DNA of 64,000 bases from Hyphomonadaceae bacterium (lineage in GTDB: Bacteria; Pseudomonadota; Alphaproteobacteria; Caulobacterales; Hyphomonadaceae). Below, piece by piece: positions 17,200 through 18,948 of the stretch. The stretch's first letter is position 1. Each line of letters starts with the position of its first letter. The translations under genes were made by a program, and so were the position numbers. The DNA lies in NCBI GenBank assembly GCA_022844345.1, contig JALHLU010000003.1:248001-312000 (forward strand), in the 5' to 3' direction. The notes beneath the pieces were generated by a model, which had not been told where the DNA came from, did not search any database, and was given only the letters and a program-made list of their open reading frames with translations.

Positions 17200-17967
17200 A
17201 TGGCGGGCCCCATCGTTCACATGTTCCCGTGCCTCAAGGACAATTACGGCTTCCTGCTGCACGATCCCGCCACGGGCGAGACCGCGACCATCGACACGCC
17301 GGACGCCGCGAAGATCCTGTCGGAAGCCGCCGCCAGGGGCTGGACCATCACGCAGGTGTGGAACACGCACTGGCATCCGGACCACGCCGGCGGCAATGCC
17401 GACATTGTCTCCGCCACCGGCGCCAAGGTGTTTGGCCCCGAGGAAGTGACCCGCATTGGCGCAGCCCCTGATCGCATCCTGCACGAAGGCGACACGGTGA
17501 AGCTCGGCAATGCGACCGCGCAAATCATAGAGACGCCGGGCCACACGCTGGGCCACATCGTCTATCACCTGCCCGACCATCACATAGCGTTCGTGGGCGA
17601 TACGCTGTTCGCGCTCGGCTGCGGCCGCCTGTTCGAGGGAACGCCGGGGCAGATGTGGGATAGCCTCGACAAGCTGCGCGCCCTGCCCGACGACACGGTC
17701 GTCTACTGCGCGCACGAATATACCGCGTCCAACGCCGCGTTCGCGCTCAGCGTCGACGCAAAGAACGCCGACCTCGTCGGCTACGCCGAGGACGTGACGA
17801 AGAAGCGCGCGAAAGACATCCCCACCGTGCCGACAACCATCGGCCGCGAGAAACGCGCCAACCCGTTCCTGCGCGCTGACAATCCTCAGTTGCAGGCCTT
17901 CGTCGGGCATCCCGGTGATGTGGTGGCGACGTTTGCTGAAGTGCGCGAACGGAAGAACAGGTTTTGA
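17200..17967 (+). CDS. gloB: Hydroxyacylglutathione hydrolase (glyoxalase II)
   Basis: This 255-residue metallo-beta-lactamase-fold enzyme hydrolyses S-D-lactoylglutathione to D-lactate and glutathione. The metal motif THWHPDHAGGN is near residue 55. Further ligands are in TPGHTLGHI (about 112) and VGDTLF (about 132), and the C-terminal NPFLR glutathione-site motif is present. The stop lies one base before the left inverted repeat of the DUF559 element. Confidence 0.95.
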   Translation: MAGPIVHMFPCLKDNYGFLLHDPATGETATIDTPDAAKILSEAAARGWTITQVWNTHWHPDHAGGNADIVSATGAKVFGPEEVTRIGAAPDRILHEGDTVKLGNATAQIIETPGHTLGHIVYHLPDHHIAFVGDTLFALGCGRLFEGTPGQMWDSLDKLRALPDDTVVYCAHEYTASNAAFALSVDAKNADLVGYAEDVTKKRAKDIPTVPTTIGREKRANPFLRADNPQLQAFVGHPGDVVATFAEVRERKNRF

Positions 17968-17968
17968 C

Positions 17969-18021
17969 ACTCTTCCCCCGCTTGCGGGGGAAGTACCCCG
18001 AAGGGGGGATGGGGGCGAGCC
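17969..18021 (+). repeat. Left inverted repeat (REP-like, two hairpins) of DUF559 element
   Basis: This 53-bp unit begins ACTCTTCCCCCG and ends GGGGGCGAGCC. It contains a hairpin CTTCCCCCG/CGGGGGAAG with a 4-base loop and a second small hairpin CCCC-GAA-GGGG. It is the near-exact reverse complement of 18456-18510, differing only in the first hairpin's loop and a one-base indel. Confidence 0.88.
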
Positions 18022-18077
18022 AAGAGCGTTGCCTGCGCAGCAACTTCAGACACTGTTGGTCCCGGGGGGGCACAGCG

Positions 18078-18446
18078 ATGCGCGAAGGACAGAAGACACG
18101 CTTCGCCCGCCGACTGCGAAGCAAGATGACGCCGGCGGAGCGTCTGTTGTGGTGGAAGCTCAAGGACGAGCAGCTGGGCTGGAAGTTTCGTCGCCAGGCG
18201 CCGGCTGGCCCGTTCGTCCTCGACTTTGCTTGCGTTGAAATACTTCTTGCGATCGAGATAGACGGCGCAACTCATGGCACTGAATCCGAACGACGCTACG
18301 ACGCCAACCGCACGCAATACCTTGAGCACAATGGATGGCGCGTCATTCGTTTCTGGAATGACGAAGTGTTTCAAAACCTGAATGGCGTGGTCGAGAGCAT
18401 CCTTCTCGCAGCGGCGGAGCAGCGGGAGTGGACCAATCGCAAATGA
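18078..18446 (+). CDS. DUF559-family (Vsr/restriction-like) endonuclease
   Basis: This 122-residue protein has the DUF559 pattern: MTPAERLLWWKLKDEQLGWKF, RRQAPAGPFVLDFAC with the catalytic Asp, then LAIEIDGATHG with the E-x-D core, and WRVIRFWNDEVFQN at the C-terminus. This is the PD-(D/E)XK-type fold related to very-short-patch-repair nucleases, though its function is untested. ATG 18078 gives the normal family length. An upstream extension to 17964 would read through the inverted repeat. The gene lies wholly between the two repeats. Confidence 0.87.
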   Translation: MREGQKTRFARRLRSKMTPAERLLWWKLKDEQLGWKFRRQAPAGPFVLDFACVEILLAIEIDGATHGTESERRYDANRTQYLEHNGWRVIRFWNDEVFQNLNGVVESILLAAAEQREWTNRK

Positions 18447-18455
18447 TCCCTTTGG

Positions 18456-18510
18456 GGCTCGCCCCCATCCCCCCTTTCGGGGTACTTCCCCCGTTTCACG
18501 GGGGAAGAGT
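18456..18510 (-). repeat. Right inverted repeat of DUF559 element
   Basis: This is the reverse-complement partner of 17969-18021, with the same double-hairpin design. The first hairpin's loop differs (TTTCA here against CTTG). It starts 9 bases after the nuclease stop and ends 6 bases before the cupin start codon, so it probably occupies the cupin leader. Confidence 0.88.
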
Positions 18511-18516
18511 AAGCTC

Positions 18517-18948
18517 ATGACTCTCGACGACGTCATTCGAACGCTTGAGCTACAACCGCATCCGGAGGGCGGCTGGTATGCGGAGACGCATCGCATCCCG
18601 GATCCGCACGATCACGGGCATCGCTCGCCAGGTACGGCGATCTACTACCTGTTGGGCGAGGGGGAGCGGTCGCACTGGCACAAGATCGATGCGACGGAGA
18701 TATGGCACTTCTACGCGGGCGCTCCGCTCGAGCTAAGCCTCGCCGTGACCGAGACGTCGAGGCCGAAAACACGGATTCTCGGACCCGACCTCGCTGCCGG
18801 CCAGCGCCCGCAACTCATTGTGCCGCCGTATCATTGGCAGGCCGCACGCACGCTCGGCGCATGGTCGCTGGTGGGGTGCACCGTGTCACCGGGCTTCGAT
18901 TTTTCGGGGTTCGTGATGGCGCCGCCAGACTGGGCGCCCGGCAGGTAG
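18517..18948 (+). CDS. Cupin protein, DUF985 family
   Basis: This 143-residue cupin has the DUF985 pattern: LELQPHPEGGWYAETHR at the N-terminus, TAIYYLL, SHWHKIDATEIWHFYAG (metal-binding His residues) and a C-terminal VSPGFDFSGFVMAPP. The reaction is unknown for the family. The start follows directly on the right repeat of the DUF559 element, so its ribosome site (GGGGAAGAG) is formed by the repeat itself. In-frame codons upstream to 18382 fall inside the element. Confidence 0.87.
   Translation: MTLDDVIRTLELQPHPEGGWYAETHRIPDPHDHGHRSPGTAIYYLLGEGERSHWHKIDATEIWHFYAGAPLELSLAVTETSRPKTRILGPDLAAGQRPQLIVPPYHWQAARTLGAWSLVGCTVSPGFDFSGFVMAPPDWAPGR

Follow-up and report, generated by a model that had tools for sequence, protein, structure and literature searches.

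DUF559 proteins are best read as dedicated nucleases of triplex-type repeats, in an arrangement like that of RAYT and REP but with an unrelated enzyme and unrelated repeats, which they would cleave and mobilise. A DUF559 gene and its own repeats of intrastrand-triplex design probably make up a widespread two-part selfish system, in which the nuclease most likely cuts its cognate repeat, and repair or copying spreads the repeats as doublets. The evidence is drawn from the anatomy of one locus, the association of gene and repeat across genomes, the cognacy of nuclease clade and repeat sequence, and the turnover of repeat sites between related genomes. The parts of such a system were already known; the pairing of DUF559 with repeats, and the generality of this pairing, appear to be new.

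Anatomy of the Locus

At the junction of gloB and a Cupin_5 gene in the 64-kb window (the whole stretch of DNA that was analysed), a 542-base unit consisting of a repeat, a DUF559 gene, and an inverted copy of the repeat was read directly (Table 1). The original prediction of a nuclease gene lying between two near-identical inverted repeats, which differ in the loop of the first hairpin and in one indel, was thereby confirmed: the left and right copies match at 89%, the differences being the hairpin 1 loop and one extra A. The tight fit of the unit between its neighbours was likewise borne out by the coordinates, with the single base 17968 separating the gloB stop codon (17965-17967) from the left repeat and the cupin ATG at 18517 following six bases past the right one. 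A motif scan found that the third segment of each repeat mirrors the purine arm and that this tail faces the gene in both copies. The start codon of the DUF559 gene at 18078 is putative, since a longer TTG-start frame (17964-18446) runs through the left repeat.

Table 1. Features of the DUF559 locus and its neighbours (positions in the window).
Feature	Position	Strand	Basis
gloB (hydroxyacylglutathione hydrolase), left neighbour, outside the element	17200-17967	+	Profile match
Left repeat unit, 53 nt, tail gene-ward	17969-18021	+	Direct reading, triplex-type motif scan
Left unit hairpin 1: pyrimidine arm CTTCCCCC (17972-17979), loop GCTTGC, purine arm GGGGGAAG (17986-17993)	17972-17993	+	Motif scan; DNA fold (MFE and centroid)
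Left unit short hairpin 2 (CCCC-GAA-GGGG), within the second loop	17996-18006	+	Read from sequence
Left unit tail GATGGGGG, mirroring the purine arm; putative third strand	18008-18015	+	Motif scan
DUF559 (PF04480) PD-(D/E)XK / Vsr-like nuclease gene, 122 aa	18078-18446	+	ORF, profile match
Right repeat unit, 55 nt, inverted, tail gene-ward	18456-18510	-	Direct reading, motif scan
Right unit tail: CCCCCATC on the forward strand, GATGGGGG in unit orientation	18462-18469	-	Motif scan
Right unit hairpin 1, loop GTGAAAC in unit orientation	18485-18507	-	Motif scan, DNA fold
Cupin_5 (DUF985) gene, right neighbour, outside the element	18517-18948	+	Profile match

Architecture of the Repeat

Each repeat is composed, in order, of CTTCCCCC, a loop, GGGGGAAG, the CCCC-GAA-GGGG hairpin, and GATGGGGG. 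The occurrence of two such repeats at the DUF559 gene is not a matter of chance. With a 40-nt core pattern allowing up to 3 mismatches, the left copy was the sole match in the window and none was obtained in 100 shuffles, the right copy being missed because of its indel; a scan of the 64-kb window for the triplex-type motif returned two places, exactly the two repeats.

In place of the selection of an RNA or double-hairpin structure originally proposed for the repeat, a DNA intrastrand-triplex (mirror) architecture is the better reading; it recurs near most of the DUF559 genes read. When folded as single-stranded DNA, the two units gave z scores of -2.0 and -3.5, with a centroid that contains hairpin 1 and is without hairpin 2; in the MFE fold of the left unit, the CCCC of hairpin 2 pairs with a neighbouring GGGG, a pairing missing from the centroid. 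Rfam returned no matches in the window at gathering thresholds. The window repeats possess the features that define class II of BoxC/PIT, namely a pyrimidine (Y) arm, a complementary purine (R) arm, and a mirror third strand on the same strand, with a loop 2 of 14-15 nt and, in the right copy, a loop 1 of 7 nt. An intrastrand-triplex (mirror) architecture of the BoxC/PIT design is predicted for the window repeat, the mirror form of the third strand being favoured, rather than proved, by sequence alone.

The DUF559 Protein

The window protein matched PF04480 with 118.7 bits (curated cut-off 20.6; E 1.4e-34) and, by sequence, 3hrl_A (Endonuclease-Like Protein; E 9.7e-20). A scan of the genome contigs with this protein found one relative. 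In a DUF559 alignment of 160 rows, in which the window gene is counted twice, the acidic and histidine residues E21 (158/158), D49 (158/160), E60 (160/160), D62 (159/160), H66 (154/160), and D75 (157/160) are near-invariant, as is R78; their conservation suggests that the protein is an active nuclease, in which these residues may play the catalytic role. AlphaFold2 run on the single sequence gave a poor model (pLDDT 50). No HUH Y1 domain (PF01797) was found among the Pfam matches of the window protein, and PADLOC gave nothing beyond weak partial matches to large proteins.

YcjD has been grouped beside Vsr within the PD-(D/E)XK superfamily (PMC1189080). A host housekeeping function might be envisaged, whereby the nuclease nicks triplex or hairpin DNA, or performs mismatch repair as proposed for VsrA of Caulobacter crescentus, with the adjacent repeats serving as binding or autoregulatory sites. 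VsrA (CCNA_02930) carries a DUF559 domain, and the SOS response upon loss of a cytosine methylase depends on it (PMC12907096); in addition, dN was lower than dS in all 8 gene pairs with a computable dS, among 10 pairs examined. Such a function is nevertheless unlikely to account for the family, given its patchy presence in 39/61 genomes of the order and 56/199 genomes of the phylum (E<=1e-15), the several divergent copies per genome, each with different repeats, and the fact that repeats are more numerous, not rarer, where the nuclease is present. The window protein is also not a Vsr by NCBIfam, scoring 21.1 bits over 24 matched residues against a cut-off of 97.85 for TIGR00632 (vsr). As a separate observation, the SOS response in C. 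crescentus that was blamed on faulty VsrA mismatch repair might instead reflect cutting at repeats.

Association of DUF559 Genes with Triplex-Type Repeats

The association between gene and repeat is general, extending over the Pseudomonadota and to four Deinococcus plasmids. From 61 genomes of the host's order, 39 of which contain DUF559, 89 DUF559 genes were read; 17 weak or fragmentary places were not fetched, and L116, with an internal stop, was dropped before the counts. The triplex-type motif lay at most 300 nt from the gene in 75/89 cases, compared with 9/290 control ORFs. In the rest of the phylum, it did so in 63/70 cases (40/43 in other Alphaproteobacteria and 23/27 in other classes) against 11/257 control ORFs, the 70 loci being not a random sample but 30 tool-selected best matches and 40 hand-picked ones. 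Control ORFs of 300-450 nt carried the motif in 1/46 and 0/33 cases. One control region in each set holds a DUF559 gene (L128 and L287), making the controls conservative. A direct, non-mirror third strand was matched in 61/89, 34/43, and 23/27 cases versus 75/89, 40/43, and 23/27 for the mirror form (5/290 versus 9/290 among the control ORFs of the order); the frequent direct matches are due to G-runs, which satisfy both forms alike.

Mutual bracketing repeats (score >=17) were found around 62/87 DUF559 genes of the order and were absent from the remaining 25/87, two of the 89 genes being without enough flank. The corresponding controls, taken from regions of the same genomes, amounted to 1/290 ORFs, 0/46 ORFs of 300-450 nt, and 6/500 random positions. 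In the phylum set, 26/70 genes were bracketed, L190 having given no row in this test and L206 two. The orientation seen at the window locus recurs, with the tail of the nearest upstream unit pointing gene-ward in 104/118 instances (104 versus 14) and that of the nearest downstream unit in 58/81 (58 versus 23).

Ten plasmid-borne DUF559 genes from outside the Pseudomonadota were fetched and nine scanned, L304 being left out as a large protein; the motif was present at 4/4 genes from Deinococcus, 1/4 from cyanobacteria, and 0/1 from Thermoactinomyces. On the four Deinococcus plasmids (L305-L308), DUF559 and triplex-type repeats occupy different slots among genes of aromatic catabolism (hpaB, hpaE, paaD/paaZ). 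Elsewhere, two tandem DUF559 genes at L074 (G043) are flanked by long, very similar repeat arrays, which suggests a recent duplication of gene plus repeat.

Covariation of Nuclease Clade and Repeat Sequence

Comparison of the sequences of the 62 genes with mutual repeats showed that repeat sequence changes together with nuclease clade from one non-syntenic locus to another. With 12 syntenic pairs set aside, 1879 pairs remain, and a repeat match (score >=25) was obtained in 18/38 non-syntenic pairs with a protein identity of at least 0.6 as against 20/1613 with an identity below 0.5. The observed correlation was reached by none of 2000 Mantel label permutations and, when labels were shuffled within genomes for pairs from different genomes, by 11/2000. 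In the congener G008, the related nucleases L087 and L095 are flanked by sub-types of one repeat, GGCGGACAGG and GGAGGACAGG. The host itself (G000) has three DUF559 genes, all of them bracketed by repeats of differing sequence, the window type being present in 2 copies in its genome, the L008 type in 2 (all at the gene), and the L009 type in 53.

Dispersal and Turnover of the Repeats

One repeat family, the L009 type, is dispersed and turning over in the genomes that carry its nuclease. Its copies number 53 in G000, 49 in G008, and 12 in G011, the congeners which, according to the tree, carry the L009 nuclease clade (L009 in G000, L087 and L095 in G008, L100 and L101 in G011), and 3, 5, and 3 of these copies, respectively, lie at the nuclease genes. 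The pattern was absent from the other 12 congeners and occurred once each in G023 and G053 among 46 more distant genomes. Repeat type and nuclease clade are associated within the genus (Fisher 0.002), the clades having been read from the tree with the repeats already in view; L068, the closest gene not belonging to the L009 clade, is in G023, a genome with 1 copy. A reversed L009 pattern used as a control scored 46 in G000, 22 in G008, 11 in G011, and 0 or 1 elsewhere, because the motif is close to mirror-symmetric.

Among the copies in G000, 44/53 form inverted pairs, four of which are short palindromes. Twenty such doublets from G000 and G008, each of 115-120 bp, have homologous spacers (186/190 pairs above the 99% point of shuffles), so that the doublet behaves as one unit in the manner of a REPIN. 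When a 100-kb stretch of G000 was aligned to G008, 5/9 sites were common to both and 4 were missing in G008; of the 11 sites on the G008 side, 5 were common, 4 were missing in G000, and 2 could not be assigned a place. In several cases of absence, the two genomes differ over the entire intergenic stretch. At G008:C23:470755 and 472227, the G000 allele is without the doublet and keeps GTGGGGGTCT, an outcome for which excision, or deletion by microhomology once the tail has been cut, is as good a fit as insertion. For the two cleanest polymorphic doublet sites, microhomology deletion and insertion fit equally well, and one doublet site has a 4-bp GTGG overlap, also compatible with microhomology deletion.

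Three further features of these two genomes were observed. An inversion relates G008:C23 (about 445,650 and 477,700-479,950) to G000:C6 (about 193,100-222,900), with one edge near the L009-type doublet at 445,771-445,887, as if recombination at the doublet had caused it. At G000:C6:220987-221030 (L263), a short palindrome of the doublet's outer arms is found where G008 has the full doublet, a resemblance to the "palindrome effect" reported from E. coli for BoxC pairs. Lastly, a different inverted pair, by eye similar to a CGTC-tagged REP dimer, lies at G000:C6 about 237,850-237,970 (L264) in place of a G008 doublet.

It might be argued that the nuclease is only a passenger, in that GC-rich repeats and DUF559 genes both gather in unstable intergenic sites, the repeats themselves being moved by a different enzyme, such as a RAYT. 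Holder et al. (PMC4666352) reported that the surroundings of BoxC sites are highly variable, in two congeners the gloB-cupin junction is occupied by another small gene pair, and a Y1 (PF01797) match is present in two of the three L009-type carriers (one each in G008 and G011). This is, however, a very improbable account. The host, with 53 copies of one repeat type, has no PF01797 match at E<=0.001, and RAYT-driven spread was rejected for the host only; conversely, G005 (2 matches) and G007 (1 match) have Y1 but none of the L009-type repeat. The covariation of clade and repeat between non-syntenic loci and the scarcity of the motif at control ORFs of 300-450 nt also argue against it.

Outside the L009 type, the fit between repeat type and nuclease clade is imperfect. 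The window-repeat type is present in G005 (19 copies, 3 of them at its DUF559 gene), G003 (18), G011 (6), G004 (2), and G029 (1); G005 has a related nuclease, L020, and no close relative of the window nuclease was found in G003, G011, or G004. Copies of the L078 type are commonest in G003 (121), followed by G008 (17), G013 (12), G004 (10), G011 (5), and G005 (0), while the L078 clade is carried by G008, G004, G011, and G005 (L088), with no member found in G003. No DUF559 hit was obtained in G013 despite its 12 L078-type copies; the assemblies of G003 (540 contigs) and G013 (77% complete) are very fragmented.

Gene-free copies of the window repeat, which the original prediction had named as a sign of mobility, were encountered in congeners. 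The original interpretation is upheld in part: in congeners, copies of the repeat lie scattered without the gene, but in its own genome the repeat occurs at the gene only, as does the repeat of one other of the host's three DUF559 loci, and the window copy would be mobile by inference. The idea that the window repeat is a genome-wide REP of the host was rejected, its two full copies both being at the gene. A partial palindrome was noted at C6:199452.

The gloB-cupin Junction in Relatives

The gloB-DUF559-cupin order is not a conserved block, in keeping with the mobile element first envisaged. gloB is present in 58/61 genomes, including the host, and 29 loci of relatives were read, 24 of them with the cupin gene next after gloB inside the flank that was fetched. 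These 24 junctions contain DUF559 in one case (G005), small minus-strand ORFs in two, and at most 132 bp in 21. The G005 junction comprises a DUF559 gene, related repeats, and a third, gene-free unit. In G008, the closest relative by gloB (92% aa), 14 bp separate the gloB stop from the cupin start, and in G013 the junction holds a lone hairpin of the window-repeat kind. As regards the hallmarks of a classical insertion sequence or MITE, gene-free junctions do exist, and no target-site duplication was found for a nuclease-bearing unit.

Between G000 and G005, dS was 3.55 for DUF559, 0.83 for gloB, and 1.07 for the cupin gene. The higher value for DUF559 speaks for separate arrivals at one junction rather than for common descent, as moderate rather than decisive evidence, the gene having about 100 codons and 3.55 being near saturation. 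Vertical inheritance of gloB-DUF559-cupin is allowed by the protein divergence and disfavoured, to the same moderate degree, by these dS values.

Three other junctions have contents of their own. Those of L013 and L014 (G001 and G006) span about 650 bp with small minus-strand ORFs (121 and 82 aa in L013), toxin-antitoxin-like by eye, and that of L015 (G004) is a GC-rich spacer of 132 bp whose long end segments are complementary.

Homing-type spread would be another way to fill such a junction: the nuclease would cut a gene-less target site, and repair from a gene-bearing copy, with the flanking repeats or the neighbour genes providing homology, would insert the gene, the repeats acting as homology or target without being processed into mobile doublets. 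Homing endonucleases of the Vsr fold (EDxHD) exist, the junction is gene-free in 21/24 relatives, and the presence of DUF559 there in two species with so high a dS is what would be expected of a site filled repeatedly. Homing is nonetheless an unlikely explanation, as it accounts neither for the gene-free doublets with homologous spacers, present by the tens in genomes that hold a nuclease, nor for the tail-inward orientation of the units.

BoxC-Type Repeats and E. coli ycjD

Across 199 Pseudomonadota genomes, a BoxC-type pattern was detected in 38/56 genomes with DUF559 (E<=1e-15) versus 12/143 without (p 6e-17), and the association held at genus level (27/11/7/76, p 4e-12). The 12 BoxC-bearing genomes without DUF559 hold up to 66 copies.

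In E. coli K-12, the DUF559 gene ycjD lies between sapF and fabI. The motif scan of the fabI-sapF stretch revealed one unit of BoxC-type repeat downstream of ycjD, and a second, degenerate inverted unit was recognised by eye at its 3' end; ycjD is not bracketed (scores 9.0 and 8.5). Directly before its start codon lies a long AT-rich inverted repeat (CTCATTCTGAC...GTCAGAATGAG; L146). The 45-nt repeat beside ycjD matches 5376/5426 E. coli genomes, at a median of 19 places, and a sapF-fabI interval with ycjD is found in 3361/5426. RND efflux genes occupy the ycjD site in SMS-3-5, the same arrangement being described for strains without ycjD in the eef paper (PMC12817139). An even sample of 60 of 5413 records was listed and H138, a short record, dropped; the 37 records with ycjD had 16-31 repeat places (median 22, the ycjD locus included) and the 22 without had 3-18 (median 11.5), a contrast that is supportive only, because the strains are related and not independent cases.

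Proposed Mechanism and Implications

In the favoured account of a two-part selfish system, the substrate would be the repeat, whose arms and mirror tail may enable it to depart from B-form in the single-stranded state, such as arises on the lagging strand. Recognising its cognate repeat when extruded or single-stranded, the nuclease would nick or cut near the G-rich tail, after which repair or copying of the cut repeats would spread them, mainly as inverted doublets, and destabilise the sites. The nuclease gene itself would travel occasionally, bracketed by two tail-inward units. Binding, cutting, the position of the cut, the copying route, and the continued mobility of the window copy are what we infer on these grounds.

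A wider proposition is put forward more tentatively, at somewhat short of an even chance: DUF559 may represent an unrecognised class of structure-guided mobile-element nucleases that recognise BoxC/PIT-type DNA, and that created and still spread the repeats in Proteobacteria and beyond. BoxC/PIT elements have been known since the 1990s without a partner enzyme, for which DUF559 is now a possible candidate, and a nuclease family with clade-specific repeats makes the spread and instability of BoxC testable in E. coli K-12, with its ycjD and 23 published BoxC copies. If true, the spread of repeats by DUF559 would explain why BoxC is dispersed in E. coli and why instability is reported around it; a REP-like lifestyle would have arisen with an enzyme fold unrelated to HUH transposases, and a widespread DUF would gain a function.

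Comparison with Known Systems

By its profile and its match to 3hrl_A, the window protein is a member of the DUF559/YcjD family (structure 3HRL). VsrA of C. crescentus is likewise a Vsr-like DUF559 protein, for which the proposed role is mismatch repair (PMC12907096). In the open literature, subscription papers being outside its scope, no paper among the matches listed connects palindromic or triplex repeats with DUF559, with YcjD, or with a Vsr-like protein.

The closest counterpart of the repeat is BoxC/PIT/TM_ECO, as surveyed by Holder et al. in 2015 (PMC4666352), with which it shares a pyrimidine arm, a purine arm, and a mirror third strand (class II purine motif), as well as a GC-rich composition, an intergenic location, some inverted pairs, and a strain-variable number. 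The repeat beside E. coli ycjD itself belongs here and has the T-T-A second loop that marks type A of the survey. BoxC/PIT repeats were reported in more than 260 genomes and tied to genome instability, with 23 copies of BoxC/TM_ECO in MG1655, five inverted pairs, and unexplained variability around the sites; triplex formation was reported for TM_ECO by CD and NMR. According to the same survey, no transposase or integrase remnants and no mobility gene were found in the surroundings, and the mechanism of instability is unclear; in the text available from it, the strings nuclease, DUF559, YcjD, and Vsr are absent. Unlike in BoxC/PIT, loop 2 of the window repeat contains an additional short hairpin, its triplex is a prediction from sequence, and both its loop 2 of 14-15 nt and the 7-nt loop 1 of its right copy exceed the 1-6 nt of the published BoxC/PIT finder.

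The CGTC-tagged REPs of Alphaproteobacteria, palindromic dimers said to be without a dedicated transposase, have 8-9 bp stems starting with A-T pairs, a CGTC tag, and a CCA tail (PMC3733652); the window repeat differs in its stems and tag, which rule out its assignment to this group.

With the REP/RAYT (TnpA_REP) systems, REPINs, and REPtrons, the DUF559 system has in common an enzyme gene bracketed by its own palindromic repeats, repeat-specific enzymes, a patchy distribution, and, for one repeat type, dispersed inverted doublets (PMC3116915, PMC3733652), and the compact nuclease-plus-repeats locus of REP/RAYT-like design that was originally suggested is supported. REPtron-style dispersed doublets were seen for the host's L009 type, whereas the window repeat is dispersed in congeners only. 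The system departs from REP/RAYT in its enzyme, which is of the DUF559/PD-(D/E)XK kind and not an HUH Y1 protein, in the absence of a GTAG tag from both strands of both window repeats as read from their sequence, and in the mirror tail that these repeats carry.
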